A DNA stretch of 64,000 bases from Bifidobacterium callitrichidarum (lineage in GTDB: Bacteria > Actinomycetota > Actinomycetes > Actinomycetales > Bifidobacteriaceae): contig NZ_QFFM01000007.1 of assembly GCF_003129905.1 (NCBI RefSeq), forward strand, positions 1 through 64,000, written 5' to 3'. The position numbers were made by a program, and so were the translations under genes. Within the stretch, counting starts at the first letter, position 1. The number at the start of each line of letters is the position of its first letter. Positions 4,468-52,258 of the stretch are shown here, in pieces. The notes beneath the pieces are model-generated. The model did not search any database and had not been told where the DNA came from. It saw only the letters and a program-made list of their open reading frames with translations.

Positions 4468-4542
4468 GTGGAGCCTTTCGCCTCGATGCATGTATGAATA
4501 CATATAGGCATAATGTGAATCGCAGAAAACAACGATGCTGAC

Positions 4543-4568
4543 AGACAAACGGCCATTTGTTGGAGCTG
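4543..4568 (+). repeat. hsdS recombination site C
   Basis: This is the perfect inverted partner of site B over 26 bp. It marks the 5' edge of the silent hsdS cassette and lies about 75 bp upstream of the recombinase start codon, so recombination here also changes the DNA upstream of the recombinase. Confidence 0.85.
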
Positions 4569-5192: not shown

Positions 5193-5712
5193 GAGCACGG
5201 CAAGAATCTTCGATAGAATCAAGCAGAGTCACTGCCTTATCTTGATAATCCCTTGAGGGCACCGGAATAGGAAGAGAAGCAAATGCACGTTCATTGATAT
5301 TTCCCCGTGTACTTCCGCTTATATGTGACGTTACCCAATCTTGGTAGCTCTTGCTCTGACAATAGTATTTTACCCATCGAGGGTTAATCAACGCTTTATC
5401 TAGAGTAAATCCGATAAGGAATCCGGCGAACACAAAATTTCCGTCACGAACATCATATAGATAATTCCGACCGACGCTCGCTCCTGTCCGAGCAAAAACT
5501 ATATCCCCTTCCCGAAGCTCATATTTTTTTGAGTTCGTATCATCGATAGATTTAAGCCCAGACAAATTAAGGGTTCCATTATCGTTAATATCTGTAATAC
5601 GGAGATATGTAGGTAAGTTTGGCGAATAGTCTACCGCCGAAGCCGCAATGCCGTACCGTCCTTTTCCAGTCAAGCACAATTCCGAAAGATTGACCTCAGA
5701 GCCCATACCCAA
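5140..5712 (-). CDS. hsdS: HsdS N-terminal half (truncated in this orientation)
   Basis: The 190-aa product holds the first recognition domain and hinge of HsdS, from the start overlapping hsdM to LTQTNGHL at site D. It then runs ten codons antisense into the neighbouring cassette before stopping. The ATG at 5712 overlaps the hsdM stop by 17 bp, so it is translated with hsdM. Truncated HsdS halves can pair to form a working specificity subunit in some type I systems, so the short form need not be inactive. Inversion of 4543-5186 would restore a full-length gene. Confidence 0.85.
   Translation of the reverse strand: MGMGSEVNLSELCLTGKGRYGIAASAVDYSPNLPTYLRITDINDNGTLNLSGLKSIDDTNSKKYELREGDIVFARTGASVGRNYLYDVRDGNFVFAGFLIGFTLDKALINPRWVKYYCQSKSYQDWVTSHISGSTRGNINERAFASLPIPVPSRDYQDKAVTLLDSIEDSCRALTQTNGHLYPSEFVLAA
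5169..5193 (-). repeat. hsdS recombination site D
   Basis: The 18-bp core is a perfect inverted match to site C. With the flanking TGAGTGAG it matches site B over 25 bp. It encodes LTQTNGHL of the truncated hsdS on the minus strand and TNGRLSE of the silent cassette on the plus strand. Confidence 0.85.
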
Positions 5713-7201
5713 TCGCCTCCAGATTCTTCTTGATTTCGGCTTGTAGTCGGTTGGATTCCTCGAAGCATTTGGCGAGTTCTCCGGTCAGACGCTTCATCTT
5801 CTCATCGAATGGCTCATCGTCCTCTTCTTGCTCAGCAATGCCGACATAGCGGCCGGGAGTAAGAATGTAATCCTGCTTGGCAATGTCTTCGATAGACACT
5901 GCGGCGGAGAAGCCTTTCTCCTCTTCCAGCGTCCCATCACGGAACGTATCAAACGTGGATGCGATCTTCTGAATATCCTCATCAGTGAGCGTACGCTGTG
6001 AGCGACTAATCATCGTGCCCATGTTGCGAGCATCTACGAACAGCGTCTTGGAATCAGCAGGACGCCCTTTGCGCAGGAACCATAGGCACACTGGAATCTG
6101 CGTGGAGAAGAACAACTGCGTCGGCATGGCAACAATACCCTCCACCAGTCCGGCGTTGACGATGTTCTTGCGAATCTCTCCTTCATTGTTCGTCTGCGAC
6201 GACAGCGAGCCATTGGCGAGCACTAAGCCGATACGGCCAGACTGCGACAGGTGGTGAATCATGTGCTGCATCCATGCGAAGTTTGCATTGCCCTCGGGCG
6301 GCACGCCGTATTCCCAGCGTGGATCGTCCTTGAGCTTATCGCCACCCCAATCGGATAGATTGAATGGCGGGTTCGCGAGAATGTAGTCGAATCGCTCGGT
6401 GCGATGCAGATCGTTGAAGAACGTATCGTCGTTCTTTGGGCCAAGATCGGCATCAATGCCACGGATGGCGAGGTTCATCGTGGCCATCTTCCACGTTGTC
6501 GGGTTCGACTCCTGACCATAGACGGAGATGTTATTAATGTTGCCCTGATGGTTACGCACGAACTCGGCCGACTGTACAAACATGCCGCCCGAACCACAAG
6601 CCGGGTCATAGACACGCCCCTTGAACGGCTCAAGCACATTCACCAGAGTCTTCACCACGCATTTCGGCGTGTAGAACTCGCCGGCGTTCTTACCCTCCTG
6701 AGACGCGAACTGCGACAGGCAATACTCATAAGTGCGGCCAAGCAGATCATGGGTGTCTCCGTTCTCAGCCATCTTCACGTTGGTGAACAGGTCGACCACT
6801 TCCCCAAGCCGGCGCTTGTCCAGTTCAGGACGTGCGAAGTTCTTGGGCAGCACGCCCTTGAGTTTCTTGTTCTCCTGCTCGATGAGCCTCATTGATTCAT
6901 CGATGACCTTACCGACTTCAGGAGTGTGTGCAGCCGCGGCCACGACTTCCCAACGGGCTTCTTTCGGCACCCAGAAGATGTTCTCGGACGTGTACTCGTC
7001 ACGGTCTTCCTCGAATCCTTCGCCTTCGGCCACCAATTCGGCGTGTTTGGCCTCGAAGTTATCCGAGATGTACTTGAGAAAAATCAAACCGAGTACAACA
7101 TTTTTGTATTCCGAAGCATCGATGTTGCCACGCAGTTTACAAGCCGCGTCCCAAATCTGCTCCTCAAAGCCCAGGGCTTTGGTGCTTGTCTTTTTCGCCA
7201 T
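5696..7201 (-). CDS. hsdM: Type I restriction system methyltransferase subunit HsdM
   Basis: The 501-aa protein is a type I N6-adenine methyltransferase subunit. It has an N-terminal HsdM helical domain (IWDAACKLRGNIDASEYKNV), the AdoMet-binding motif DPACGSGGMF near residue 200 and the catalytic NPPF motif (ILANPPFNLSDWGG) near residue 280. It methylates the site chosen by HsdS and forms the restriction complex with HsdR. The ATG at 7201 is 3 bp after the hsdR stop, and its 3' end overlaps the truncated hsdS start, so hsdR-hsdM-hsdS form one operon. No key residue is missing. Confidence 0.96.
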   Translation of the reverse strand: MAKKTSTKALGFEEQIWDAACKLRGNIDASEYKNVVLGLIFLKYISDNFEAKHAELVAEGEGFEEDRDEYTSENIFWVPKEARWEVVAAAAHTPEVGKVIDESMRLIEQENKKLKGVLPKNFARPELDKRRLGEVVDLFTNVKMAENGDTHDLLGRTYEYCLSQFASQEGKNAGEFYTPKCVVKTLVNVLEPFKGRVYDPACGSGGMFVQSAEFVRNHQGNINNISVYGQESNPTTWKMATMNLAIRGIDADLGPKNDDTFFNDLHRTERFDYILANPPFNLSDWGGDKLKDDPRWEYGVPPEGNANFAWMQHMIHHLSQSGRIGLVLANGSLSSQTNNEGEIRKNIVNAGLVEGIVAMPTQLFFSTQIPVCLWFLRKGRPADSKTLFVDARNMGTMISRSQRTLTDEDIQKIASTFDTFRDGTLEEEKGFSAAVSIEDIAKQDYILTPGRYVGIAEQEEDDEPFDEKMKRLTGELAKCFEESNRLQAEIKKNLEAIGYGL

Positions 7202-7204
7202 GAA

Positions 7205-10200
7205 TCAGTTTCCCTCTCCGTAGTCAACCCACAACTCGCACTGCTGCATCACCGTCTCGATGGCCTCCGGCACCTCATCCGGCGGGTACTTATGCTTCTT
7301 CAGCAATCGTTTGATTGACTTACGCATGCGAGCGCGGGCATCGTCTTTCTTCTGCCAGTCTATCGTGCGGTTCCTGCGCAACGTGTCAGTCAGCTCTCGG
7401 GTGATAGCAACCAGCTCATCGTTCTCGTAGAAATCCTTGATAGCTTGTGGCTTAGTCAGTGCATCATAAAAGGCAAGCTCTTCATCATCCAGACCAAGCG
7501 TCTTACCTTCCTGCCGCGCGGCCATGATCTCCTTGGCCATATCCAACAGCTGCTGTATGACCTCGGCGTTGGTGAGCATGCCGTTGAGATATGCATTAAC
7601 CGATTGCTGCAGCATCTCGGAGAACTTGCCAGCCATGACCACGCTCTTCTTGCGATATGCCTTGACCTGATCGTCAATCAGCTTGCGCAACAATTCCATC
7701 GCGAGATTCTTCTGCTTCATCTGTGCGACTTCGGCAAGGAAGGATTCATCAAACAGCGAGACCTCAACTGTCCGGTCTTCGAACAGATCGATAACGCCTT
7801 CGTTATGTACGCCTTGCTCCATGATGGCGGCGATTTGCTTGTTGATCTCCTTCAAAGACATGCGCGGATTGCCGGGATTAACGTTCAGCACTTTCAGCAT
7901 CTGCGTGCGCAACACATCGATGTACGCTTCTTCGATCTTCAATTCATCAGCGACCATGCTGCGGCACAAGCCGAATGCTTGGGCCATCTCCTTGGCGCAC
8001 TTGATAAAGTCCTTACGATCTTTCTCCCGCTCGGGATCAAGTAAGTAGTCCGCACCGTCCGCGATGGCTTCAGCCATCTGTTCGGCAGAATTGGTATGGA
8101 TTCGGTTCTGATAATCCAAACCATGTAGAAAGTCTCGGCACGCACTCAGCTTGTCAAGGAACAACGGATATGCGGTGTCGGCCACGTTCATGTCGCCATA
8201 CCGTTCACGATCACGCTTAGTGTAGTCGTGCATCGCGCGTTTCAGGGCACCAGCGATGCCGATGTAATCAACGATCAGGCCGCCTTCCTTGCCCTTGTAC
8301 ACACGATTCACTCGTGCCACAGCCTGCATGAGGTTGTGTCCTTTCATAGGCTTGTAGACGTACATCGTGGATAGCGAAGGTACATCGAAACCAGTCAGCC
8401 ACATATCCACTACGATGGCGATTTTGAACGGACTGTCATCATCCTTGAACTCTTTAGCGAGCTCATCTTTATGGGCTTTATTGCCGATGACCTTATGCCA
8501 TTCCTCCGGGTCCTGATTGGAAGACGTCATGACCACATGCACTTTGTCTTTCCATTGCGGGCGCAGTTCAAGGAACTTCTTGTACATACGCATAGCAATG
8601 GGCCGTGAATAGGCAACGACCAACGCCTTACCCGTCAGCTCGTCCGCGCGATTCTCCTCATAGTGATTCACGATGTCACGGCATAGGGAATCGATGGTCT
8701 CAGGAGCACCCAACACACTGTCCATCGTCGCCAAGTCACGTTTACTGCGATCAATAGCCATCTCATCGGCATCATCCGAGATGTTCTCGTACTGCTTATC
8801 CAATTCGCGGAGTATGTTTTCATCCAGCTTGAGCGAAACCACACGACTCTCATAGAACACCGGACGAGTGGCACCGTCCTCGACCGATTGGGTCATGTCG
8901 TACACGTCCACGTAATCACCGAATATCTCGCGGGTGGATTTATCCTGAGTCTCAATCGGAGTGCCGGTAAATCCTATATAGGAAGCGTTCGGGAGCGCTT
9001 GCCTGACTTTCAACGCATCACCCACTGAATGAGTACCATCCGCATGGAGTTTTATTTCCAGTCCGTACTGACTGCGGTGCGCTTCGTCGGCCATGACCAC
9101 GATGTTGCGGCGTTCTGATAGCGGTTCATCGGATTCACTGAACTTCTGCATCGTCGTGAATACGATGCCGTTCGCCTGCCGATTGTTCAGGAGTTCGACA
9201 AGATTGTCACGGCTGACCGCCTGCTGTGGTTGCTGGCGCAGGAAATCTGCGCACTTGGCGAATTGTCCATATAGCTGCCCATCCAAATCGGTACGGTCAG
9301 TGGTCACCACAATCGTCGGGCTGTTCACCTGTTCAGCCAGCAAATGTGCGTAGAACACCATCGACAATGATTTGCCGGAACCCTGTGTATGCCAGAACAC
9401 GCCGGCTTTGCCATCGCTGTTCATGGCGCGCAAGGTGCTCTCCACAGCCTTATGAACGCCGAAGTACTGATGGTACGCCGCTAGAATCTTTGCGGTTCCG
9501 TCCTCCGACTTGGAGAAGCAGATGAAGTTGCGAAGAATGTCAAGCAGCCGGTCTTTGGGGAACATGCCATCGAGCAGCGTGGTCCATCGGATAACGATCT
9601 TGTTGGCAATCTTCGAGTAATCGCCGTCAGCAGTCTTCCACTGCATGAAGCGATCCTCGCTGGCCGTGATGGTTCCGACACGGGTATCGCTCATATCCGT
9701 CATCACGCAGAATGCGTTATAAGCGAACAGTGACGGAATCACTTTCATATAGTTACGCAACTGCAGGTATGCATCCGATGCGTCGACATTCTCGCGCGAC
9801 GGTGATTTCAGTTCAAACACCACCAATGGCATGCCATTTACGAACACGATTACGTCGGGCCGTTTCTCCTCATACTCAACGTACGTCCATTGGTTTACCA
9901 CGTTGAATACGTTTCGATCAGGATGCTCGAAATCAATGATCCGCACATGGTCGGGAGTCATCTTTTCTCCGTCGAAAAACGATACTTCTACACCTGATTG
10001 CAGGTATTCCATGAACTGAATATTGCGTGTCAGCAGATCGACACCTTCGATATCCGACACCTTTCGGACGGCTTCCGCAAGGGCAGCCGGATGGATTCCC
10101 GGATTGATCCGGCGTAGGCAGTCTTCCAACACGCCAGGCAGCAAAACATCACGATATGACTCATCCGTGCGCTTCACTTCCGGCCCGTACAGCCATTCGT

Positions 10201-34301: not shown

Positions 34302-34328
34302 TCACTTGCTGACGTTGAACTTGAACTC
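34302..34328 (-). repeat. Detached ychF 3' end, copy 1 (attachment-site remnant)
   Basis: On the minus strand this reads EFKFNVSK followed by a TGA stop, the same eight residues that end YchF at 51164. The core ACGTTGAACTTGAACTC (34312-34328) is identical to that in intact ychF, while other codons differ silently (AGC for TCA, TGA for TAA). Confidence 0.8.
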
Positions 34329-34349
34329 AAGCCATGTCGCTATACGGCA

Positions 34350-34661
34350 TCACGCCGAAACCAGTTCGCCATAAGCGGCGTACTCGTATGAGTGTTCGTA
34401 CAGATACGTGGGAGAGATGTCGATGTCACCGTCACACCAAGTCAGAATCCCGTGATCGATATGGAAGTCCTCGAACGTCTTCTTATCCCGCAGCGGGGCG
34501 AAGGCGGGAACGTCGTCGTACATTTCGGTGAAATCGCACAGGCGCGTCTCGCCCGTGGAGAACGTCACCAGCATGACATGATCATCCGTGACACGAGCCG
34601 ACCGGACTTCCAACTCCCGGGCGGGTTCATCCGCATACAGGATGCCGTTTACCTCGAACAT
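34350..34661 (-). CDS. DUF2442-domain protein
   Basis: The 103-aa protein fits DUF2442: a small beta-rich unit with VRSARVTDDHVMLVTFSTGETRLCDF, then F-A-P-L near the middle and the closing FHIDHGILTWCDGDIDISPTYLYEHS. DUF2442 genes are commonly paired with DUF4160 genes, as here (15-bp gap), in small two-gene modules sometimes proposed as toxin-antitoxin pairs. The start ATG 34661 follows GAGGAAGGGAGC. It is located between ychF-tail copies 1 and 2. Confidence 0.82.
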   Translation of the reverse strand: MFEVNGILYADEPARELEVRSARVTDDHVMLVTFSTGETRLCDFTEMYDDVPAFAPLRDKKTFEDFHIDHGILTWCDGDIDISPTYLYEHSYEYAAYGELVSA

Positions 34662-34676
34662 GACGGGCTCCCTTCC

Positions 34677-34943
34677 TCACGAAAGCGGCTTGATACGGTC
34701 GAACGGACGTCCGGACACGGCCTCGTTCCATGCCTTGTACAGCTCATCCTCATGCAGCACCAGCCATGCGGCCACCAGCTTGTACTGCTTGGCGGGCAGT
34801 GAGCCGGCCAGCAGCTCGCCGTCGATGCCGATGGATGCCTTGAAGTCGCCGTAGTACACATGGACATGCGGCTTGTGATGTTCGCTCTCGTCCTGATACA
34901 TCATGCGGATGATGATTCCGAAGAAACGACTCAACTCCGGCAT
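34677..34943 (-). CDS. DUF4160-domain protein
   Basis: The 88-aa protein matches DUF4160: MPELSRFFGIIIRMMYQDESEHHKPHVHVYYGD, with the conserved HHxPHxHV motif, then A-x-I-x-x-G-E-L-L-A-G-x-L-P. It is likely the partner of the DUF2442 protein. I start at ATG 34943 with GGGAGGTGTGGC upstream; the open frame continues to 35051 without support. Function is unknown; the histidine cluster could bind metal. Confidence 0.85.
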   Translation of the reverse strand: MPELSRFFGIIIRMMYQDESEHHKPHVHVYYGDFKASIGIDGELLAGSLPAKQYKLVAAWLVLHEDELYKAWNEAVSGRPFDRIKPLS

Positions 34944-35118
34944 GCCACACCTCCCATCCGATATCTCATATGAGTTAAAGCTCTGTCTTGAGTATATTCC
35001 CGTAGCAAGAGCGTCATCGCTGGTAATCGACCTGTGCATGGTCATGATCACGCAATAGGGTTCAAGTCAGCAACAGGTTTCGTTGTGCTCCAGCATTGTT
35101 AGAAAAGACCCTCATCCC

Positions 35119-35919
35119 TTAATAAGTTGGTAAGGAAACCCCTACCCCATCTTGCTGGTTGGACGGAGCAACAGTATCAGCGGCAGCTTTGATCCGATCA
35201 TCAGCGTTTGTCATAGCGACGCCCATCCCTGCCGCGCGCAGCAGTGGAACATCGTTGAGCCCATCACCAAAAGCGATAACATTCCTCAAATCAGCGTCCA
35301 AGCTTTTTGCCCAGATTTGTGAAGCATGCGCCTTGTTCGCATTGGCATTTGAGATTTCCATAACACCGCCACTGGAATCGGTAACCGTAAAGTCCCTACC
35401 AATTAGCTCACGGCAACCGTCAATATACTGATCCGCTTTGTAGTCAGGTGTTGCCATGACAAGCTCAAGAACAGGAGCATTTGGAATTGACGACATGCGT
35501 TGAGGATTCGGATCACGCAGTATTCCTCCCTGCGCGTGCAGATCCCAAAATGCTTGATCGCAACCGAATCCTTCCCTGTACTCCCACCCGAATCCAGCCT
35601 GTGGGTATTTATTTTTCAGCATAGCAATAATGTCAACACACTGTCTCTCATCAAGCGGTTCGGAATGAATAACATGGCACGTGGCTGTATCCACAATCTG
35701 TGCGCCGTTAGATACAAGAAAAGCGGAAAATAAAGGCAATACCGGTTCTAGTATCTGCTTTGCTAAGCGGAACGGACGCGCTGACGCCGCGGCAAAAAGA
35801 ACACCAGCATTTTTAGCTCGGTCAAGCATGTTTTGTAACCGAGAAGAGACCTGCTGGCTCTCATTGAGTAACGTGCCATCGAGATCGGTAACAACGAGAA
35901 TCGGCAACTTAAGACTCAT
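35119..35919 (-). CDS. HAD-superfamily (Cof-like, IIB) phosphatase
   Basis: The 266-aa protein has HAD motif I (VVTDLDGTLLNE), motif II (AAASARPF) and motif IV (IAFGDGLNDVPLLRAAG), with a C2 cap domain between, as in Cof-type sugar-phosphate or cofactor phosphatases. ATG 35919 follows GGGGGCCGTT. It lies alone inside the segment between ychF-tail copies 1 and 2 and has lower GC than the chromosomal genes, suggesting it arrived with accessory DNA. Confidence 0.88.
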   Translation of the reverse strand: MSLKLPILVVTDLDGTLLNESQQVSSRLQNMLDRAKNAGVLFAAASARPFRLAKQILEPVLPLFSAFLVSNGAQIVDTATCHVIHSEPLDERQCVDIIAMLKNKYPQAGFGWEYREGFGCDQAFWDLHAQGGILRDPNPQRMSSIPNAPVLELVMATPDYKADQYIDGCRELIGRDFTVTDSSGGVMEISNANANKAHASQIWAKSLDADLRNVIAFGDGLNDVPLLRAAGMGVAMTNADDRIKAAADTVAPSNQQDGVGVSLPTY

Positions 35920-35995
35920 AACGGCCCCCGTTCGTGCATTACAGCGATGCACATAATCGTGTCCGGCAAAAAGAGCAATTATAACAGGAATAACC

Positions 35996-36030
35996 GAGGG
36001 CCTTGGAATCGTTTGGATTCCAAGGCCCTC
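35996..36030 (-). terminator. Terminator-like hairpin behind ychF-tail copy 2
   Basis: GAGGGCCTTGGAATC pairs perfectly (15 bp) with GATTCCAAGGCCCTC around a 5-nt loop. It shares the CTTGGAAT stem with the hairpin behind copy 1, so each detached tail carries its own terminator. Confidence 0.7.
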
Positions 36031-36057
36031 GAGGCTATACGGCGAACGCTACTGCAA

Positions 36058-36084
36058 TTACTTGGACACGTTAAACTTGAACTC
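36058..36084 (-). repeat. Detached ychF 3' end, copy 2 (left attachment site)
   Basis: The minus strand reads EFKFNVSK-TAA. The core at 36068-36084 differs from the intact ychF copy by one base. It is 104 bp upstream of the integrase start and is the likely left end of the 15-kb element. Confidence 0.82.
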
Positions 36085-40111: not shown

Positions 40112-43012
40112 ATGTCCTCAACAGCAATATCTACCGCGCAACGGCTCACACTCGCCAAAGATGAGCGTCAACTTGAACGCGCGCATCGTAATAGCGTTTT
40201 GCAAAAGCGAATCCATGACGGCGAACTGGAAATGTCCCGCTGGCAGCTGCTGGCAGCGAGGAACACAGACCATCTATTGCGCATCGTCGCGTCGGCCGGA
40301 GCCGGTAAGACCCGGACACTCGCCAACGCAATCGCGGCCGCAGCCACGCTTCACGACGCGAAACACATCGCCGTTATCACGTTCACTCGCAAGGCGACGC
40401 GCGTCATCGATGGTGCACTCACACGCAATGGCGTGTACGGCGCCAGCGTGAGCACACTCGATTCACTCGCTCTGCGGATACTAAAAGCTGCTGGCATACA
40501 TATCAACGCTATCACCGACGCTGACAAGAGAGCAATCCTCACCGATATCCGAAAAACCTGCATGGAAGAACAGCCGCACGAACGCATCACGCTGAAACAA
40601 ATGATGCATGACACGACGTATTATGCCATGCATCCTGACGAACAGCCCGAATCCGAATACCTCAAAGCCATCCTGAAGGAATATACCAAACAATGCAAGG
40701 ATATTTACAGCGCCGAATGGCCGACCATCGAGTTACTCGCCGCGCAGCACTACCCAAAATCTGGCCTCCAGTTTGAGATACTAGGCGTGGATGAAGCCCA
40801 GGACCTTAATCCTACGCAAATACAACTGGTAGAAAGCATCACCGCCACGACGATGCAGACCATCATCGCCGGTGATTGGCGGCAAGGCATCATGACCTTT
40901 CAAGGTGCGACGCCCGACTGGTTTCGTGACGGCACAAACTTCGACCAGACATTAGAGCTTCCTATCAATCACCGATGCGCACCGAAAATAGTCAATGTCG
41001 CAAATCGCATCTTCGGGGACCACATCAAGGCCTCCAGTAATGCCACGACCGGCATGGTACCACAGCTGATACGAGCGAACAATGAACAGGACGAAGCAGA
41101 AAAAATCGCCGACATTATTGAAGGCCTGTTGTCCGATGGGCATACTGCGGCGAGCAACATCAAGTTCCTTGCGTGGCGTCGCAGCCAGTTCCGAGAACTG
41201 AAACGAACGCTTGCAGAACGCGGCATGCCAATAAACGAGGATGCCTTCCGCACCATCCATTCATACAAAGGTGATGAGGCAAACATCGTCGTTCTGGTGG
41301 GCGTGAGTCGAGCCGTATGGGGCGATCGCAGCGATGAAGCGGACATGTTGCTATATGTGGGAATGACACGAGCGAGACTGGGGCTCATCATCTCCTATCC
41401 CGACCAAACGATTCTCCCCGGCGGCCGCACTTCCACAGTCTACGGCCCATATCTCACACTTGAAGACTGCGCCTTGCAAGAGTCATCCGATTCAGAGACG
41501 ATTCTCGGCAAGCTCCACCGCGACATCAGTAGTCGTCACCTGTTGGAAGATGTCATCGAGGACAACAGGACCGCACAGAACATCGCCATCCAGAAAAAGC
41601 AGCAGAGTCGTGTCGTCGCGAGCTACCAACGCCTAGGCAACGTAAAGGTGGCAGCGAAGCTGACGGATTGCGCGGATAAGCTAACGTTCGAGACCATGAC
41701 CGACGGAAGTGTTCGACGCAGCCTGTTGGCGCACGCATGGTTCTGCAACCAGAAGACCTGCAATATTTGTATGGGAAGACGGGCCGTGCGCAACCAACTG
41801 CGCGTTGGCGCGGCACTCGATTGTTTGTTTAACCCCAAATGCTACCAGGATTTACTGCCTGATGAACTGTATGAGCGTATTGCCAGGATGCGGTTTGCGA
41901 CACCTGCCTTCTTCACGGCGACTATGCCCAACTTCGATGACCTTGCGCTCGGTATCCGCGTGCTCAATCTCGCCGTCCGTAAGCTCACTCACACGAATAC
42001 CGGCCGTATTATGAGCGAACGCGAACGAGTGTTCACGCAAGGCATCGTCGGCACCACGCGCAGCGACGAAGCGACCAATCGGTACATCAACGCAGGACTG
42101 CACGAACTGGAATACCAGCTACAGCAACACGAATCTATGCACGACTTGACCGACACACAACTAAATGAACTTCGCCAGAAGATAACCGACATTCGGGCGG
42201 GCGGCGAATGGCACGTACACGCCCACATGATTTTCGCGACGTTGGGAACCTATTACCATGACCAGCTTCATAGCAACGACATTAAGAATGGACACGACTA
42301 CAAAGGTGACATCGTAGAGGCCAATCACTTATACAAAGACCGTCTGTGGTGGAAGTTGGAGTGGACCAGCGCCGTCCAGAAAGCCGTGAACTCCGTCATC
42401 AGGCAGGACCGGGCAAAAGGGATAGCACACGATGATTTCCAGACTGGCCGTTGGAAACGGTTTCTGAGCATGCGCCGCACCGATGTGGAACAAACCATTG
42501 AGCAAGCCCAGGCTCAAGTTGAACAATGCGAGCCGGGTACAGTCGCCTATGATGCCGCTCGGGAAGCTGAAAAGCAGGCTTGGGCCAACGGAGCGGTAAT
42601 TGATATCGAAGCTATCAGCATCAAGGGAAAAAATATGACGTCGGAACAAAAAAGGAAACTTAACAGGCATCCCGAACTGCTGAAATCCGCTATACAAGAA
42701 ACCTGCAAATATGCCTTCAAGCCGGATGAACTTTTCGTAAAAACCAGCAAGGACGAGCTCGACCAAATCCTGCCACAAATAGACGCCACATCAGGCGCGC
42801 GTCTCATCTCTCGCACCGGCATCATCGCTCAAGTGCTTCAAGATGCTGATGAGCGACGGCTCTGCGATCGTTACTTGCAACGTGCGCGAACCGGTAACGT
42901 GGACTGGACGCTGGAGCAGTCCGTCACATTCAATTGGCTGACCGACCTCCGCCAATATGTTCAATACGAAACCGTTAACGCGGATGACGGCGAAGCCGAT
43001 TTTCGGTCATAA
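40112..43012 (+). CDS. SF1 (UvrD-like) helicase fused to a Rep_1/HUH rolling-circle initiator
   Basis: The 966-aa protein has two parts. Residues 1-440 form a UvrD/Rep-type SF1A helicase: Walker A ASAGAGKTRT (about 60-69), DEAQD (228-231), INHRCAP, HSYKGDEANIVVL and YVGMTRAR. Residues about 520-960 match Rep_1 (pC194/pUB110 type) initiators: a Cys-rich start (HAWFCNQKTCNICMGRRA), FFTATMP, the metal-binding HVHAH (His701, 703, 705) and the catalytic ETCKY motif (Glu863, Tyr867; the same E-x-x-K-Y spacing as in pC194 RepA). It would nick an origin and unwind DNA in one polypeptide. The ATG follows GGAGGTG. I know of no described protein with this pairing and order. Confidence 0.82.
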   Translation: MSSTAISTAQRLTLAKDERQLERAHRNSVLQKRIHDGELEMSRWQLLAARNTDHLLRIVASAGAGKTRTLANAIAAAATLHDAKHIAVITFTRKATRVIDGALTRNGVYGASVSTLDSLALRILKAAGIHINAITDADKRAILTDIRKTCMEEQPHERITLKQMMHDTTYYAMHPDEQPESEYLKAILKEYTKQCKDIYSAEWPTIELLAAQHYPKSGLQFEILGVDEAQDLNPTQIQLVESITATTMQTIIAGDWRQGIMTFQGATPDWFRDGTNFDQTLELPINHRCAPKIVNVANRIFGDHIKASSNATTGMVPQLIRANNEQDEAEKIADIIEGLLSDGHTAASNIKFLAWRRSQFRELKRTLAERGMPINEDAFRTIHSYKGDEANIVVLVGVSRAVWGDRSDEADMLLYVGMTRARLGLIISYPDQTILPGGRTSTVYGPYLTLEDCALQESSDSETILGKLHRDISSRHLLEDVIEDNRTAQNIAIQKKQQSRVVASYQRLGNVKVAAKLTDCADKLTFETMTDGSVRRSLLAHAWFCNQKTCNICMGRRAVRNQLRVGAALDCLFNPKCYQDLLPDELYERIARMRFATPAFFTATMPNFDDLALGIRVLNLAVRKLTHTNTGRIMSERERVFTQGIVGTTRSDEATNRYINAGLHELEYQLQQHESMHDLTDTQLNELRQKITDIRAGGEWHVHAHMIFATLGTYYHDQLHSNDIKNGHDYKGDIVEANHLYKDRLWWKLEWTSAVQKAVNSVIRQDRAKGIAHDDFQTGRWKRFLSMRRTDVEQTIEQAQAQVEQCEPGTVAYDAAREAEKQAWANGAVIDIEAISIKGKNMTSEQKRKLNRHPELLKSAIQETCKYAFKPDELFVKTSKDELDQILPQIDATSGARLISRTGIIAQVLQDADERRLCDRYLQRARTGNVDWTLEQSVTFNWLTDLRQYVQYETVNADDGEADFRS

Positions 43013-43181: not shown

Positions 43182-43739
43182 TCATTGCCGCCTCAATACA
43201 GGCGGCAGGAACCGTTCGGCTTCGCCTTCGTTGAAGGTCTGCTCTTCTTCTTTCTTTAACGCATGTTGCGCTTCCTGATACGCTTTCTCAGATGTTCGCG
43301 GCGTCGTTGCGTAGATGTTCGCTACGGTCTTAGTCAAGTTGTCACGCTTCTCACGAATCTCGTCATCCCTCAGCTCGTTAAAATCTGTAAGTAGTGCCTC
43401 ATATTCCTCACGTACTATCCATAGGCGATCGGCCGCCTTCTGATGTTCCTCAGCTTTCGCCGCCGGATTAAAATTCTTTGTTGCGGCATTTACAATCACG
43501 AGAGCAACGGCAAAAACCGCCCCAATAGCTTTAGCCCATGTAGGGAATACAGTCACCAAAAAACCACCCGCAGTTATTGCTGAGAGGATGAGTTGGCACC
43601 ACCGGAGTCTACGGTCTTCCGCCCTTAACCGGTGCGCGTCTTTTTCATGCGCGGTGAATGTGTACACCACTTTTCCGTACCGCGTTACCAGCTCAGACCG
43701 AAGCCGCTCACGATAATCTGGCTTTAAATTGGTCACCAT
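43182..43739 (-). CDS. SLATT-domain two-transmembrane protein (CBASS-type effector)
   Basis: The 185-aa protein has a basic N-terminus, two adjacent membrane segments (about 50-67 and 70-88) and a long charged C-terminal helix region (EEHQKAADRLWIVREEYEALLTDFNELRDDEI), the layout of SLATT proteins. These pair with CD-NTases and are predicted to form membrane pores when the nucleotide signal is made, killing the infected cell. ATG 43739 (GGAAG upstream) overlaps the end of the nucleotidyltransferase gene by 32 bp, so the two are coupled; ATG 43757 is an alternative. Confidence 0.82.
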   Translation of the reverse strand: MVTNLKPDYRERLRSELVTRYGKVVYTFTAHEKDAHRLRAEDRRLRWCQLILSAITAGGFLVTVFPTWAKAIGAVFAVALVIVNAATKNFNPAAKAEEHQKAADRLWIVREEYEALLTDFNELRDDEIREKRDNLTKTVANIYATTPRTSEKAYQEAQHALKKEEEQTFNEGEAERFLPPVLRRQ

Positions 43740-44604
43740 ATATAGACTTCCATTCATCTTCTGCTAATGAATCAATACCAAGGTCTACGTCATATTGAGC
43801 CTCTTTAGCATGCTCATATGCAATATTTGCTTTTGCTGTAACATCTACGGAAAAGTCTATAGTTGAAAGACTTCCCGGAGCAAATAAGCTGGAATCGTTG
43901 CCATGTTTTACAAGGTACGCGAAGAAATCGCGAGTCATCTCCCCATATTTGGAATAGTTTTTGTACTTTTCAATTGGTACATCATTAAGCAAGAAAAAGT
44001 CATAAGCTAACGCATCGATTGCGATGCCGGAAATGTTGACATTATTGGCATTTCTCCATGCACGAAGCATGCGACATAAATCTTTGGGCGAATGCTCATA
44101 GTATGATGAAAGACTATTCAGCGCATTGATTTCATCCTTGGGATTTGTTACTTGCCATGAACCTCCGTTATGTGTGTCCGGGTAGTAATATGCATTACCA
44201 GAATCTTGGGAGAATGCAGGAACAATCTCGAAGCGAATTCCATCAGACCATTCAATAACGATAACTTGTCCATCACCTCGTAAATGCGAGTTTGAATATT
44301 TAGTTTGTATTACAGTCTTTACTTCTTGTAATAAAGCAGATTGACCATTACTGGCATAATGGTTATAACGATGGAATGTTTCAGGCGGCAGTTCTACTAG
44401 AATATCGATGTCACTGGTCGAGATTTCAGTCCCTCTGCCATAAGAACCGACGTATAAACCATGGAGCGACTCACTGGAAATGTCCCAGTAAAAAATATTT
44501 ATCAGCTTGACAATGCTATGGTATCTCAAACTAATGGTATCTGTTATATCTTCATCCATGAGTAAGGATGAACAAAAGCCTTGAAATGTGGAACTTACTC
44601 CCAT
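43708..44604 (-). CDS. CD-NTase (SMODS-type nucleotidyltransferase), CBASS signal synthase
   Basis: The 298-aa protein is a cGAS/DncV-like nucleotidyltransferase: GSYGRGT at 53-59, the metal-binding Asp65-x-Asp67 in TSDIDILVE and the third acidic residue Glu126 in IRFEIVPAF. Such enzymes make cyclic oligonucleotides on phage infection. The SLATT gene follows at once; the pair matches a minimal (type I) CBASS. ATG 44604 is preceded by GAGAAAA. Base composition is clearly AT-richer than its neighbours, a sign of separate origin. It is 48 bp behind the type III res gene on the same strand. Confidence 0.87.
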   Translation of the reverse strand: MGVSSTFQGFCSSLLMDEDITDTISLRYHSIVKLINIFYWDISSESLHGLYVGSYGRGTEISTSDIDILVELPPETFHRYNHYASNGQSALLQEVKTVIQTKYSNSHLRGDGQVIVIEWSDGIRFEIVPAFSQDSGNAYYYPDTHNGGSWQVTNPKDEINALNSLSSYYEHSPKDLCRMLRAWRNANNVNISGIAIDALAYDFFLLNDVPIEKYKNYSKYGEMTRDFFAYLVKHGNDSSLFAPGSLSTIDFSVDVTAKANIAYEHAKEAQYDVDLGIDSLAEDEWKSIYGDQFKARLS

Positions 44605-44652: not shown

Positions 44653-47334
44653 TTACAAGTGGTTCAGGAAGTCGGTCTTGAACGTGGCAAACGAATATGC
44701 GCCATCAATGTCCATCGGGCTATTACCAAACACCATGAAATACTGATAGTTTGGTCCGGCATCGCTGGCCCACTGGTTTCCGAGTCTGAGTTTGTCACGG
44801 CTGTCGTCATTCTTCAGCTGTTCCCCCTTGGTTTCGATGACGAACAAGCGACCGCCGCGTGTCATCGCCAAAAAGTCCGGGTAGTGGTTGATGAATCCGT
44901 TGATGTAGAACTCGCCCTTGCGCCGTTCCACAACGCGATGCCACCAGATGATACCTTCGCAGTTGGCCAAAGCGTCAGCCATCTGAAGTTCCAGCTCGTT
45001 CATACCACCGTCTTCAGCTTCGTACAGCGTGCGATCGAGCGTAGTCAATGGATTGGGAAGGTACGCCGAGGATGGGAATGCGTAATCAGGCGTAATGGTG
45101 ATGTCGCCACGACGGCGCTCCACATCGAACTCCCTAACGCGGAATGCATCTGCCTTGTCCTTGATTGCATGACTGATTATGGCCGCATAAGCGGATGCGT
45201 TGTCCACGTATCCTTCAAGTTCATCATCACTCATTTGGTCCACAACGCGGTTAATAAATGATTTCAAGCCGTGCGCGCCGTACAGTTTCTGCACTTGCGG
45301 GCTCATGAGGTTGGGCAGGTCCAGTTTGGCGCTCCGGCGACGGCCTTCGTTGCTGTCGCGCGCGAAAAGCTCCTTCATGCCTCGACGCTGTACATCAGAT
45401 AGATTACGAACTTTGAGCTCGGAATCACTCGAGATGTCGATTTGCTTGGCGTCAGCAACATGCATAGCATCCAGTCTGATGTCTTCCGTGCCGATTTTGG
45501 CAAGCATGAAATGCTCAAGCAGGGAGTCGCGATCGAATAGTTCACCTTCAGCGTCATCCAAGTCTGAGAACAGACCGGCTTGCCGTTCGAGGCGATAACG
45601 GGGAATCCTTAGATTACGTACGGTGTCGGCCACCGTATCCCTTATGCGGAACGTGTTCATATCGTCTCCCATTCCAGTAGTGCCGCCGGCAAGGGTTTCC
45701 GCGTCATCCTTAGCGCTCTTCGCGCATTCGGCTTCGGCGGCTTCGGATGTACGAATCATTGCGTCAATGGAGACATGGCGAGTGTCCGGGACTTCCTGCG
45801 AAGACTCCGGCAGCTTCGCATTTTCATCCGGCAGGGAAATCGCCAAGTCATTGAAATCGTCAGGCTCGTCTTCGGAGCCTGTCTCGTCTTCAGTGCCCTG
45901 ATGCTGCATCAACTCGTCAATTAGCCCCTGGACAGGCACCGGACCCGATGCGACACCTTCGGCTGTATCCGTCGTATCCGCCAACACGTCGCGCTTGGAG
46001 AAGCCGGCTCCATTGAGTCCGGCCACCACCTGGTCTATCGTCGCGTTGAAATCAGCGGACGAGGTCAGCACATATGACGTGTTCAATGCGCCCGACTTGG
46101 CATGCTGCGCATACGGCTGGCGCAGCACGCGGCCGACAAGCTGTTCAACGCTGGTACGCGATGTTTTATTGGCGACCGTGGCGAGCACGTAGGCAAATGG
46201 GCAATCCCAGCCTTCCGAGAGCGCTTCGACGGTTATCACGTAGCGAATCGGACATCCGCGTGCCTGGAGGTCCGTGCCTCCCAGTTCGTCCACGTCACCG
46301 GTGCGGATGGCGATATGCTCTTCGGGAATGCCTGCATCCACAAGCTTTTCCTTGAGTTTGCGGAATGTCGCAGCATTATCCGCGCCTTTGCGTTCCGCCT
46401 GAAGCAAGGCTATTGGGCGGATGTGATGCCCGGTCTTCTCCTCATTGATCGCGGCGATTTGCTCCAATCGCCTGCGCAGCATGATGGCATCCTGGATGGT
46501 TTCGGTCTTGCCGTCCCTGCGGTAGACGATGACCGGCAGCTTCACCATTTCCTCTGCCTTGAGCTCCTGTGCGGATACTCGTGCGATGACGTTGGATTTG
46601 TTGGATGGGGTGGCAGTCAACTCCAAAATGAAACAGGGATTCAAGTTGCGCAGCATCTCAATGGACAGGTTGGACTTCGCGTGGTGGGATTCATCCACCA
46701 CGACAATCGGATGCATGCCCGCCAGTGCAGTGATGAGAGCCGTATCATCAGCCCCATCGACTTCCACTGCATCGCCTTGGGATTTCTGATAATTGGTCAA
46801 TGCGACCAATGACGAATTCTCTGCATACGCACGTCGTCCATCCTTGTTCTTGAATGAATCATAGGAGAGTACGAAAACCGTCAACTGGTCTTCCACTGCC
46901 GGGCCATTGAGGCCACGTCCGGCAAGGCCATCCTCTTTATCAAGCACTTCGACGCGATGGGAGAAATCGCGGTCTATCGCCATACGCAGCGGATGCGACG
47001 GGTCACGCAACTGGCGAAGCGTCTGACGAAGAATCTCATTGCGTGGCACCAGCCACACCACCGCCCGCGTCTTCACGTCGAGCTCTTCGGTCAGCACATG
47101 CAGCGCGTTCGCCGCGATATAGGTCTTGCCGCCGCCTGTAGGCACCTTCACACAGACCTTCGGCGCACCGTTTACATCATCGACATACCATCTGATGTCA
47201 CCATGGCCGGAAAACAGCCCGTCCTGTGCAAGCAGCTGGTCGTAGGCGGCGGCACCAGTGCCGAGCGCCACGGTCAAACGCGCATACTCGCGGATGGTAT
47301 TGAGGACTTTACGCTGGTATTTCTTCAATTCCAT
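44653..47334 (-). CDS. Type III restriction endonuclease subunit Res
   Basis: The 893-aa protein has an SF2 helicase core (PTGGGKTYIAA near residue 70, VVDESHHAK, ELTATPSNK, SEGWDCPFAYVLATV, VGRVLRQPYA) and a C-terminal nuclease (YPDFLAMTRGG, then FVIETKGEQ: PD...E-x-K). With Mod it cuts DNA having unmodified sites. An acidic Ser/Glu-rich linker lies near 470-550. I start at ATG 47334, with GAGGG at good spacing, 5 bp after the mod stop; GTG 47343 is possible. It is transcribed in series with mod and the CBASS-like genes. Confidence 0.93.
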   Translation of the reverse strand: MELKKYQRKVLNTIREYARLTVALGTGAAAYDQLLAQDGLFSGHGDIRWYVDDVNGAPKVCVKVPTGGGKTYIAANALHVLTEELDVKTRAVVWLVPRNEILRQTLRQLRDPSHPLRMAIDRDFSHRVEVLDKEDGLAGRGLNGPAVEDQLTVFVLSYDSFKNKDGRRAYAENSSLVALTNYQKSQGDAVEVDGADDTALITALAGMHPIVVVDESHHAKSNLSIEMLRNLNPCFILELTATPSNKSNVIARVSAQELKAEEMVKLPVIVYRRDGKTETIQDAIMLRRRLEQIAAINEEKTGHHIRPIALLQAERKGADNAATFRKLKEKLVDAGIPEEHIAIRTGDVDELGGTDLQARGCPIRYVITVEALSEGWDCPFAYVLATVANKTSRTSVEQLVGRVLRQPYAQHAKSGALNTSYVLTSSADFNATIDQVVAGLNGAGFSKRDVLADTTDTAEGVASGPVPVQGLIDELMQHQGTEDETGSEDEPDDFNDLAISLPDENAKLPESSQEVPDTRHVSIDAMIRTSEAAEAECAKSAKDDAETLAGGTTGMGDDMNTFRIRDTVADTVRNLRIPRYRLERQAGLFSDLDDAEGELFDRDSLLEHFMLAKIGTEDIRLDAMHVADAKQIDISSDSELKVRNLSDVQRRGMKELFARDSNEGRRRSAKLDLPNLMSPQVQKLYGAHGLKSFINRVVDQMSDDELEGYVDNASAYAAIISHAIKDKADAFRVREFDVERRRGDITITPDYAFPSSAYLPNPLTTLDRTLYEAEDGGMNELELQMADALANCEGIIWWHRVVERRKGEFYINGFINHYPDFLAMTRGGRLFVIETKGEQLKNDDSRDKLRLGNQWASDAGPNYQYFMVFGNSPMDIDGAYSFATFKTDFLNHL

Positions 47335-47339
47335 ACTAA

Positions 47340-49271
47340 TCACACCCTCGCAATCTGACGGGGAATCTGCTTAAAGACGATATTCAGGGCGTCAAGCCGG
47401 TCCTGCGGCAGTACGCATCGATCGGCATAGATGACGGTGGTCGAGCCACGACGCGGCAACGTGCGCAGCAGGTCATAGCCGAGCACGCTTTCATCTGCAC
47501 CGTCGTAGGCAAGGTAATACACGGTGTCCGCCAACTCTCCGAGTAGATACGGGTGCTCATCGGTCAGGTTCTGGTATTCAGCCTTGGTTTCCGTGTACCA
47601 GACGTAGTGGAACAGCTCCTGACGCGGCACCTTGGGATTGAGCATTCCGTCCGGTTCAAACAGTACCGGACCGAGTTCGTAGTAGGAGAAGCCGGAATCG
47701 ATGCCTGGTACTGTCTCTCCCTTGCTGGTCTCGCCAATTACGGTAAGTGTGTTGTCTATCAGCCTGGGATTGCCGACTTTGTCGTATTCGCCGGCTTCAA
47801 TGGCCTGCTGTTGAGCGGCTTTCGCCTCTTCTATGTATTTCGCTGCGTTCTTCAGATTCGCTGCCGTCAGCTTCTTCTCATATACGGTCCGGGCGAATTT
47901 GGCCGACGTCTCGAACCCTTGTATGATTTTGCGGGCGCGTTCGGCGGTGATGTGATCGGCATAATCGCACATCTCCACAAGGATGAATCGCCGGTGTCCG
48001 CCATCGGCCTTGTTCGCTTCAAGCACGGCTTGGGCGGTGGTGCCGGAGCCGGCAAACGAGTCAAGGACGATGGAGTCCTTCGATGTGGCGATGTCGATGA
48101 TGCGGCGAATCAGGCGGGTCGGCTTCGGTGTGTCGAACGCTGCACGCCCTTCGAACATGGCCTTGATCTCCTTGGACGCCTCATCGGTGTGACCGACCTC
48201 AGCATAGGGCCACAGGTTGGTGACGAGACGACCGCCGACGCTGTCGAGATAGGTCTTGCGGGCGATGCCGCCCTGACCGTTTCTGGTGAAGAAGAATCGA
48301 GGCCACGGGCCGCGTTCCAGTACGATGGCGGACTTCTTCTTGGATTCCTCCATTGATTCCTTCAGCATGATAGCCGGCACGTCGGGTCGAACATCGTCTG
48401 TCGCCACGCCGCATACATGGGCGCGCTTCTCCTCATCGTGAAGATTGCGCAGCTCGTAGGGGCACCAGCCGTTCATGATGTCAAGCATCACATCCTGCTG
48501 GTAGCGCCAGCAGGACCCGTTTGCGGGATACAGCAGCTCACCTGTGAACGGGTGCTGTATGGCGTACACCATTCCCTGATGCGTTGCTGCGCCGGGAGCG
48601 AATGCGTTATCCGTACGCCATGCGGATGCATCGCCATCGGGGTTCCCGTATTTGGCGTTCATCTCGGCGGTGCGTTCCAGCTTGTTGGGGTTCCAGTCGG
48701 GGTATCGGCTGTAGACGAGGATGTGCTCGACCTCGTTGACGATGCCTTTGGAATCGTTTCGGGTCGAGTAGGTGCGCTGCCATGCGATGTTCGACACGAA
48801 GCAGCTGCGGCCGAAAATCTCGTCGCATACGCTCTTGAGGACGGCCTCCTCGTTGTCGTCGATGCTGATGAAGATGACGCCAGTGTTGCTCAGCAGCAGG
48901 CGCAGCATCTGGAGACGCGGGTACATCATGCACAGCCATTTGTCATGCCGCGAGAAGTCTTCGCCTTCCTTGCCGACGACCTCGCCCAGCCAGCGGCGGA
49001 TGCGCGGGTCGTTGACGTTGTCGTTGTACACCCAGCCCTCGTTGCCTGTGTTGTACGGCGGATCGATGTAGATGCAATCGACCTTACCCTCGTACTCGGG
49101 CAACAACGATTTCAACGCCTCCAGATTATCGCCGTGGATGACCTTGTTGCCATGATCGGTGCCATCAGAGGCAAGCACGCCCTTGTCTGGGACCTGGTCA
49201 AGTACACGGTACGGAACCTGGCGATGGTATCCGATGACCTTATCCTTGCCCATCCATTCCAGTGCCGGCAT
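47340..49271 (-). CDS. Type III DNA methyltransferase subunit Mod
   Basis: The 643-aa protein is a beta-class adenine methyltransferase: the catalytic motif DPPYNTG at residues 70-76 and the AdoMet motif DSFAGSGTTAQAVLE near 420, with a long recognition region between. It acts alone as a methylase and gives sequence specificity to Res. The ATG at 49271 follows AAAGGA. It is the first gene of a minus-strand run mod-res-CD-NTase-SLATT. No simple sequence repeat of the kind used for mod phase variation is seen. Confidence 0.94.
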   Translation of the reverse strand: MPALEWMGKDKVIGYHRQVPYRVLDQVPDKGVLASDGTDHGNKVIHGDNLEALKSLLPEYEGKVDCIYIDPPYNTGNEGWVYNDNVNDPRIRRWLGEVVGKEGEDFSRHDKWLCMMYPRLQMLRLLLSNTGVIFISIDDNEEAVLKSVCDEIFGRSCFVSNIAWQRTYSTRNDSKGIVNEVEHILVYSRYPDWNPNKLERTAEMNAKYGNPDGDASAWRTDNAFAPGAATHQGMVYAIQHPFTGELLYPANGSCWRYQQDVMLDIMNGWCPYELRNLHDEEKRAHVCGVATDDVRPDVPAIMLKESMEESKKKSAIVLERGPWPRFFFTRNGQGGIARKTYLDSVGGRLVTNLWPYAEVGHTDEASKEIKAMFEGRAAFDTPKPTRLIRRIIDIATSKDSIVLDSFAGSGTTAQAVLEANKADGGHRRFILVEMCDYADHITAERARKIIQGFETSAKFARTVYEKKLTAANLKNAAKYIEEAKAAQQQAIEAGEYDKVGNPRLIDNTLTVIGETSKGETVPGIDSGFSYYELGPVLFEPDGMLNPKVPRQELFHYVWYTETKAEYQNLTDEHPYLLGELADTVYYLAYDGADESVLGYDLLRTLPRRGSTTVIYADRCVLPQDRLDALNIVFKQIPRQIARV

Positions 49272-49439
49272 GCTGCATTCCTTTCCCAGCGTTACTTGAC
49301 AGCACTATTGTCTCATGCGTATGGCCCATCTGCGGACTCGCCGCACATATCGCGCATCATCACCTTCTGCACATCTGTTACGGTTAAACTGTCGCGGCAG
49401 TCGATACTGACTGTGTTTAAGGTGAGACTTGGAGCGCCC

Positions 49440-51008
49440 ATGAAGATGTTCTTTCCGAAACTTGGTCTGGATATGGCCTTTCCCCACAGGGACAAAGGGC
49501 AGCAGTCTTTAATTCGTGGACGGCATCGTGTGTCCACCACAGCGGCGACTCTTCCGTCAGGCAAGACGGCACGACTTGTGCTGATGTGGATAAGTACCAG
49601 TCTCATTCAGCAGGATGGATGCGTTGATGCCAGAACAGGACGTATAAGTCGTTCTGGCTTGCGGGAGTTTATGGCCCGGGCGGGCGTTAGCGTTGGCGGT
49701 CGGCAATACGATCGCGTAGAACGCCAGCTCTCATTACTGCTTAGCTGCCGATACTCCGAACACGACGGCCAGCGTTGGCGGTCGTTATCAGTCTCACGTC
49801 AAAACAAGCAGGGAGAAGTCGTGTTGACGCGACAGTTCATGCATCGCCTGGCCCATGTCATTAGCGTGGATTCCTCGATAGTACGGCAACTGCGGTCATC
49901 CATGTCTGTAGACCTGTACCTTATCGCACGGCGACAGCCTGCCGGAGCATCTGTTAGTTATGACGACTTGTACGCCATAACTGGTAATGGTGGGCGCAAT
50001 CGTTTCAGGCAGACGGTAACCGCAGCGGCCCAAGAGCTTGAAAAGACAACAATCGGTGCTATCCGTATAGCCGCTAATGGCTTTACCGTGTTAAACGACC
50101 TCACTCCGGTGCAAGACACTGAGATGGAATGGGACGATTCGTTACCCGCACGCTGTCTCTGGCATCACGAAAATGGGCTGCGGCTATACCTGGGGGATGC
50201 AAAAGCAGTTATGAGCGAATTCCCCGCGCGAAGCATTGATTGCGTTGTCACGTCCCCGCCCTATTTCAATCAGCGAAACTACAGCGGTGGCCGTAGGGAA
50301 ATAGGCCGCGAGGATACGAGCGACGCATATATTAAGAATCTCGTCGGCGTATTCCATGAGGTAAAGCGCATACTGGCGGATGACGGTACTCTGTGGCTGA
50401 ATATTGATGATTGCTATTCGACAGGAGATGCACGCGACCCCGCTCCTGCGCACTCTCTGATGGGACTTCCTTGGCGGATGGCTCTCGCTATGATGCAGGA
50501 TGGATGGCTGTTGCGTAACGAAGTCATCTGGCATAAAACACGAGTGCTTCCCGGCGCGTCAGGCAATCGATTGAACCATAATCATGAACAGATTTTCCTG
50601 TTCACCAAGACCGCTGAGAACGTTTACAACATAGATGATGTGCGCGTTCCTTTGACCGACGTTTCCAAGAAGAGACTCCAGTACACTAATCTTGCCGGTT
50701 CCGATCGCGGCAGCGGCGGAACCAAAACCATCAAAGCGGTCGGCGACATTGAAGTCGGTCGGAATCTAAGAGATGTCTGGCCAATATGTCCGGCTTATTC
50801 GCATGATGCTCATTTTGCCGTCTTCCCAATAGAAATACCCGAACGATGCATCAGGGCGGGATGCAAACGTAATGGCGTCGTGCTGGACCCATTCAGCGGA
50901 AGCGGCACAACCGGACTCGCAGCGCGATCGCTTGGCCGTAAGTACGTGGGCATTGACCTCAATGAGGATTACCTAATGCAATCAAAGCGAAAGATAGTGG
51001 GCAACTGA
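49440..51008 (+). CDS. RepA-like initiator domain fused to a DNA methyltransferase
   Basis: The 522-aa protein has two parts. Residues about 20-220 resemble plasmid RepA (RPA-type winged-helix initiator): LPSGKTARLVLMWISTSLIQ, SGLREFMARAGVSVGGRQYD, VDLYLIARRQ, VSYDDLYAITG and RFRQTVTAAAQELEK. Residues about 235-522 are a beta-class methyltransferase with TSPPY at 271-275 (SPPY is common in N4-cytosine enzymes) and DPFSGSGTTGLAARSLGRKY at 483-502. The ATG 49440 has GGAG five bases upstream; the frame is open further upstream but overlaps mod antisense. It is divergent from mod and the last gene before ychF. It may mark the element's origin or protect it from restriction; this is inference. Confidence 0.78.
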   Translation: MKMFFPKLGLDMAFPHRDKGQQSLIRGRHRVSTTAATLPSGKTARLVLMWISTSLIQQDGCVDARTGRISRSGLREFMARAGVSVGGRQYDRVERQLSLLLSCRYSEHDGQRWRSLSVSRQNKQGEVVLTRQFMHRLAHVISVDSSIVRQLRSSMSVDLYLIARRQPAGASVSYDDLYAITGNGGRNRFRQTVTAAAQELEKTTIGAIRIAANGFTVLNDLTPVQDTEMEWDDSLPARCLWHHENGLRLYLGDAKAVMSEFPARSIDCVVTSPPYFNQRNYSGGRREIGREDTSDAYIKNLVGVFHEVKRILADDGTLWLNIDDCYSTGDARDPAPAHSLMGLPWRMALAMMQDGWLLRNEVIWHKTRVLPGASGNRLNHNHEQIFLFTKTAENVYNIDDVRVPLTDVSKKRLQYTNLAGSDRGSGGTKTIKAVGDIEVGRNLRDVWPICPAYSHDAHFAVFPIEIPERCIRAGCKRNGVVLDPFSGSGTTGLAARSLGRKYVGIDLNEDYLMQSKRKIVGN

Positions 51009-51033: not shown

Positions 51034-51075
51034 AGATGGGGCGGCATCGAACGTGGATTCGATGCCGCCCCATCT
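51034..51075. terminator. 18-bp-stem bidirectional hairpin
   Basis: AGATGGGGCGGCATCGAA pairs perfectly with 51058-51075 around the 6-nt loop CGTGGA, between the convergent methyltransferase and ychF genes. There is no T-run on either side. Confidence 0.6.
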
Positions 51076-51083
51076 ATGTCCGG

Positions 51084-51144
51084 CTTGTCAAAACTTGTAC
51101 AAAAACATGCCGACACGCCGTGGTTTTTGACAAATTTTGACAAG
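51084..51144. repeat. TTTTGACAA repeat cluster near the right attachment site
   Basis: CTTGTCAAAA (51084-51093) is inverted relative to TTTTGACAAG (51135-51144), and TTTTGACAA also occurs at 51125-51133. The TTTGACA core matches the dyad at 36155-36174 beside the other end of the element. Confidence 0.55.
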
Positions 51145-51163
51145 CGAAAATCGTTGGAATTAC

Positions 51164-52258
<1,095 letters not shown>

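Follow-up and report, generated by a model that had tools for sequence, protein, structure and literature searches.

A RepA-type initiator domain fused to a beta-class DNA methyltransferase in an integrated defence element of Bifidobacterium callitrichidarum

The RepA replication initiators (PF04796) of Bifidobacterium iteron plasmids belong to the RepE54/pi fold class with its two winged helices, and iteron-type Rep proteins repress their own promoters. Beta-class N4/N6 amino-methyltransferases, such as M.PvuII, TTHA0409 and the solitary methylases of phages and plasmids, are a separate group of enzymes and have no RepA-type domain. Two described systems come closer to a joining of these functions. 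According to the paper on RctB of Vibrio chromosome 2 (PMC6090056), this initiator represses its own promoter and binds its origin in a methylation-dependent manner, with the methylase, Dam, as a separate protein. According to the papers on M.SsoII and M.Ecl18kI (PMC3978073, PMC3695355), these are C5 enzymes with an adjoining endonuclease, and expression is regulated by a short part at their N-terminus (in M.SsoII, residues 1-71).

The gene considered here lies in a 64-kb window (the whole stretch of 64,000 nucleotides of B. callitrichidarum DNA that was analysed; Table 1) and joins a RepA-type domain to a complete methyltransferase. With plasmid RepA it shares both winged helices and the RepE54-like predicted fold; unlike plasmid RepA, its domain is shorter, has no iterons nearby, lacks the N-terminal stretch, and has the methyltransferase in place of the C-terminal tail. 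With the beta-class enzymes it shares the full PF01555 domain, motif IV ahead of motif I, and TSPPY. The likeness to the M.SsoII type consists in an N-terminal DNA-binding extension, here a predicted one, on a DNA methyltransferase; the fusion differs in that the extension comprises two winged helices of initiator origin, the enzyme is an amino-methyltransferase (PF01555) and not a C5 enzyme, and no endonuclease is evident. RctB has its initiator fold class in common with the model of the N-terminal domain. What we consider new is the combination of RepA and methyltransferase, its parts and methyltransferases with an added DNA-binding domain being already known. No such fusion was found in the literature by a search confined to open-licence papers, so one may exist in print.

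Table 1. Coordinates of the fusion gene, its parts and the integrated element that carries it
Feature	Position	Strand	Basis or remark
Left repeat of ychF 3' end, left element boundary	36058..36084		24/27 identical to 51164-51190
Tyrosine integrase, 666 aa	36188..38188	+	PF00589 E 7.5e-10; phrog_1 E 3e-18
UvrD helicase fused to Rep_1-type rolling-circle initiator	40112..43012	+	PF00580 E 7.8e-26; PF01446 E 5.7e-9
CBASS 2TM effector (SLATT_4)	43182..43757	-	PF18186 E 2.3e-53
CBASS CD-NTase (SMODS)	43708..44604	-	PF18144 E 5.3e-41
Type III Res	44653..47343	-	PADLOC REase_III E 5.4e-78
Type III Mod	47340..49271	-	PADLOC MTase_III E 3.1e-172
Region between divergent mod and fusion gene, 168 bp	49272..49439		
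Candidate operator arms TCACCTT-N3-CACA / TGTG-N3-AAGGTGA	49360-49373, 49412-49425		Inverted repeat
RepA-methyltransferase fusion gene	49440..51008	+	522 aa; open frame, stop-ended
RepA-type (PF04796) two-winged-helix domain, residues 1-224	49440..50111	+	hhalign, AF2, RepE54 match, dN/dS
Beta-class amino-methyltransferase domain, residues 236-522	50145..51005	+	PF01555, structure matches
Motif IV TSPPY, residues 271-275	50250..50264	+	Translation; invariant in 18 aligned homologues
Variable segment, probable target-recognition region, residues 391-440	50610..50759	+	Divergence from B. catulorum
Motif I FSGSGTT, residues 485-491	50892..50912	+	Translation
Perfect 18-bp inverted repeat, terminator-like, 3' of fusion gene	51034..51075		
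Right repeat, 3' end of ychF	51164..51190		ychF 51164-52258, minus strand

The first-pass annotation had seen the pattern of a RepA-type winged-helix initiator in the N-terminal half, and comparison with relatives bears this out. Searched with the window sequence alone, Pfam returns no family for this half at E <= 1. Nevertheless, tblastn within the genus finds stand-alone RepA proteins (residues 4-113, E 3.7e-11; residues 4-185, E 2.5e-10) at loci that carry PF04796 in their own right, and a profile of the three fused N-termini aligns by hhalign with nine stand-alone RepA proteins over 197 columns (99.5%, E 3.5e-23, a value for a single comparison). The B. catulorum orthologue matches PF04796 directly at E 6.5e-4 and 20.4 bits, under the 26-bit cut-off. 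The alignment spans both winged helices at 21-26% identity; about 40 loop residues are absent from the fused domain, as are the N-terminal stretch and C-terminal tail of the stand-alone proteins, and the basic residues that open the last helix survive in part. No solved structure matched the RepA alignment by sequence at E <= 10. With three RepA rows in the input alignment, the best of five AlphaFold2 models of the domain reached pLDDT 80 and pTM 0.80 (pLDDT 72 to 45 for the other four); in a full-length model built without these rows, residues 143-229 fall below pLDDT 50. Over residues 1-220 the model matches RepE54-DNA complexes (Foldseek E 3.1e-4; Z 13.2, 180 aligned, rmsd 3.1), followed by RctB (domains 2-3) and pi. 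Judged by these alignments, residues ~1-222 are homologous to plasmid RepA across both winged helices, and both its descent and its predicted fold make the domain an initiator. The earlier annotation had named an N-terminus resembling an ordinary methylase recognition domain and unlike RepA as what would speak against it; the homology together with the RepE54-like predicted fold decides that test in favour of RepA.

The assignment of the C-terminal half to the beta-class methyltransferases stands as well. PF01555 covers residues 266-516 (E 3.2e-53, 181.4 bits, cut-off 26.7), TSPPY (IV) precedes FSGSGTT (I) in the beta order, and the predicted fold matches M.BceJIV (Z 27.6, 237 aligned, rmsd 2.2) and M.PvuII (Z 25.7, 228 aligned, rmsd 2.1). 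We take the TSPPY motif type to be a sign of an N4-methylcytosine product, and by this motif type N4-methylcytosine is probably what the enzyme makes; M.BceJIV, the best structural match, is an N6-adenine enzyme. The half is ~36-47% identical to phage and plasmid enzymes, and it appears solitary, its neighbours being type III mod/res and ychF with no evident partner endonuclease. In a comparison of the protein with its B. catulorum orthologue, residues 391-440 agree at 28/50 positions, the rest of the methyltransferase at 220/237 and the RepA part at 193/225; the segment thus looks like an exchanged or fast-evolving recognition segment within the methyltransferase.

That the two halves form one selected protein, as had been supposed, is well founded in the open 522-residue frame and the substitution pattern. 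Compared with B. catulorum, the whole gene has a dN/dS of 0.11; residues 1-225 give 0.140, the short linker 0.279 and residues 246-522 0.087, so that purifying selection acts on both halves. A ribosome-binding-site-like GGAG lies 5 bases 5' of the ATG at 49440. The frame is also open further upstream (863 aa, antisense to mod), and because the 29-bp block directly 5' of the ATG is unchanged in B. catulorum, translation could begin several codons earlier, at an in-frame GTG at ~49413. A codon-usage caller marks the RepA part as atypical, which we take as foreign composition.

The fusion looks rare, and among the collections searched it was found only in Bifidobacteriaceae. A profile of the N-domain matches in 21/189 genomes of the family, with fusions in four (the window genome, B. 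ramosum, B. catulorum and B. olomucense); the other matches listed are shorter, stand-alone frames. Of even draws of 396 genomes each from the order and the phylum, 3/396 and 1/396 matched, the former all Bifidobacteriaceae and the latter being the window genome. None of the matching phage (586) and plasmid (401) records covers 80% of the fusion protein, nor do any of 288 plasmid records when the B. olomucense fusion is the query. Among viral loci, 80/80 kept out of 109 confirmed match only from residue 228 or a later one onwards, the frames of three (L106, L136, L150) being cut at the N-terminal end; neither of two viral frames with extensions of more than 100 residues contains a RepA family, and a viral-contig scan gave 34 pattern matches and no relative of the N-domain. 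One of 16 genome loci, L060, has a 202-residue N-terminal extension and was left out of the Pfam scan. A RepA gene beside a methylase gene on a plasmid was considered as the source of the fusion and set aside: four methylase-bearing plasmid regions (Xanthomonas, Klebsiella, Salmonella, Lactococcus) have no directly adjoining RepA gene, the methylase neighbours being recombinase, XcyI-family endonuclease, antitoxin or hypothetical genes.

B. olomucense encodes both a fused and an unfused enzyme, 100 kb apart on the same contig, which share 75% identity across 287 residues. A tree of the methyltransferases makes the two sisters (100/100) and places the pair inside a bifidobacterial clade (100/99); the RepA parts of the three fused proteins form one group (98/99, on long branches), and 5' of the unfused gene no RepA remnant is found at a meaningful E-value. 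A single fusion followed by a single loss of the RepA part fits these trees best. Because the unfused sister nests inside the fused clade, the RepA part should be dispensable for catalysis. The B. olomucense fusion gene lies ~3.7 kb from a DUF5906/helicase gene and is convergent with a 604-aa gene (L165, 18001-19815) which has no Pfam, PHROG or PDB match.

The genomic setting is that of a mobile element. Repeats of the ychF 3' end, the integrase, the points at which similarity to related elements starts (36057 for B. ramosum, 99.9%; 36059 for B. catulorum, 84%) and an empty site in another genome (G023, L186), where ychF directly adjoins sequence equal to window 36084-35997, show an integrated element of 15.1 kb, at the right end of which the fusion is the last gene. 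The fusion gene is thus cargo of a ychF-integrating defence element with CBASS and type III restriction-modification. An identity to B. ramosum of 99.1% across 12.8 kb, ychF included and ending at 52264, suggests a recent move of the element from one species to another. The separate rolling-circle initiator reported in the element is indeed present, in a protein that couples UvrD to Rep_1 with an HVHAH motif.

Several further features of the region deserve mention. The UvrD-Rep_1 protein has a KYAF tyrosine motif in addition to HVHAH, an unusual helicase-initiator fusion, and the integrase has ~470 residues between its N-terminal SAM-like domain (79-130) and its catalytic end (610-655). A third copy of the ychF 3' end occurs at 34311-34328, separated from 36058 by a HAD-hydrolase gene; 34305-36084 is perhaps a second, older insertion at the ychF site. 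Within the type III mod gene, 47708-48844 has no similarity in the B. catulorum element, the remainder being 83-85% identical, which looks like an exchange of the recognition part. An imperfect 30-bp inverted repeat (51083-51145) in the gap that separates the fusion gene from ychF contains TTTTGACAA twice and possibly provides integrase binding sites. A second low-G+C stretch covers 1001-10000 (0.44-0.56 vs 0.59-0.68 further right). An obligate link of the fusion to type III restriction-modification was also considered; against it, the B. olomucense genome, which has the fused gene, contains no Mod homologue at E <= 1e-30, and relatives of the fusion at E <= 0.001 are absent from 5/5 tested Mod-bearing genomes, drawn from eight besides the window genome and B. 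ramosum.

An initiator domain raises the question of an origin, and the first-pass annotation had proposed that methylation might be aimed at the element's own. Upstream of stand-alone RepA genes, within 400-500 bases, 12-mers are repeated in 5-9 copies at 5/7 genes, against at most 3 in shuffles (30 for each gene); at 3/3 fused genes there are 2-3 copies, like the shuffles, that is, no iterons. Nor does the whole 15-kb element contain a family of at least three repeats spaced within 300 bases, and the iteron patterns of relatives find no match within the 64-kb window, even at 2-3 mismatches. These results speak against an origin at the fusion gene, and with iterons at 0/3 fused as compared to 5/7 stand-alone genes, methylation of the element's own origin is left unsupported. 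Since two stand-alone RepA genes (L028, L030) are likewise without iterons, a lack of them does not strictly prove that the origin function is gone. Considering that the additional residues found at both ends of stand-alone RepA are missing along with the iterons, the fusion seems to have abandoned the role of an initiator.

What, then, might the selected domain do? The reading we favour, tentatively and with a little less than even confidence, is that a solitary methyltransferase has acquired the initiator fold for a new use, as an auxiliary module that binds DNA and probably serves autoregulation. The enzyme would pick its sites through its own segment, residues 391-440, and the full two-winged-helix RepA domain ahead of it would be an accessory module. 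Let us suppose that this module binds close to the gene that encodes it, in the 168 bp shared with the divergent type III mod. Such binding would repress or tune expression of the fusion gene, and it would at the same time tether the enzyme locally. By analogy with self-repressing initiators and with the N-terminal region of the M.SsoII type as precedent on a DNA methyltransferase, autoregulation combined with local tethering would be the likeliest remaining role of a selected DNA-binding domain. The divergent arrangement with mod and an inverted repeat placed alike in two species are consistent with this scenario. The 168-bp region has a single inverted repeat of at least 11/14, whose position is shared by B. 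catulorum, where the region is 83% identical; a repeat of that grade also arises in 35/300 shuffles of the region and is not significant alone. One arm may overlap the coding start, and the unchanged 29-bp block could be partly coding. Against autoregulation via the shared region speaks the fact that the divergent mod is not conserved with the fusion, being absent in B. olomucense.

Among other explanations, the one that survives best, which we nonetheless regard as unlikely, is that the RepA part is still replicative, binding an origin in the excised element or in another replicon, with the methyltransferase gating re-initiation or copy number. Both winged helices are kept and under selection, replication-type genes lie nearby in both contexts (the HUH initiator here, DUF5906/helicase in B. 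olomucense), and the RctB paper (PMC6090056) offers an instance of methylation-dependent binding by an initiator whose domains 2-3 match our model. The lack of iterons at all fused genes and in the element, the lack of relatives' patterns in the window, the loss of both terminal stretches of stand-alone RepA and the presence of another initiator in the element all weigh against it. A rather improbable alternative would have the RepA part target incoming RepA plasmids, or serve as a decoy on their iterons or origins, which would be marked or blocked so that the plasmid is excluded. The element is dense in defence genes, RepA_C is present in 14/112 genomes of the genus, eight plasmid records encode a RepA 60-80% identical to one genus RepA, and the basic residues partly retained in the last helix would suit such binding. 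However, the window has no iteron-like site, methylation itself does not destroy plasmids, and because the N-domain is just 21-26% identical to stand-alone RepA, an iteron specificity common to both is doubtful.

Quite improbable, too, is an initiator that reads and writes at once, in which RepA would bind origin-type DNA and the fused methyltransferase would mark the same or an adjacent site, altering further initiator binding, so that replication of the element itself is gated or rival RepA plasmids are silenced. A single polypeptide would then do the job that RctB and Dam do as two; the positive support for it amounts to the neighbouring replication genes. That the RepA domain serves as the target-recognition domain, or as a needed extension of one, is suggested by the mere position of a DNA-binding fold on a methyltransferase, and we consider it very unlikely. 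Small enzymes that are complete in themselves, such as M.PvuII, align with the entire methyltransferase, and relatives without the fusion are common, as the viral loci and the B. olomucense sister attest. Given the strongly diverged segment inside the methyltransferase itself and a 75%-identical enzyme that has no RepA domain, the RepA part, as far as sequence comparison tells, is not the main recognition domain, and the earlier suggestion to that effect is not upheld. A neutral relic of an accidental fusion, with the RepA part having no role, would suit the rarity of the fusion and the apparent loss of the domain in one B. olomucense copy, and is made very improbable by the dN/dS of the RepA part and by the grouping of three fused N-termini across great divergence.

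Returning to the auxiliary, probably autoregulatory module, its effect on expression, replication or the choice of sites is open to direct measurement, since B. olomucense carries fused and unfused enzymes with a 75%-identical catalytic part. Should the reading-and-writing initiator be true instead, replication control and its methylation switch would be joined in a single molecule. If the initiator fold has indeed been reused on a DNA-modifying enzyme, as we tentatively propose, this would make plasmid replication proteins raw material for new epigenetic regulators.
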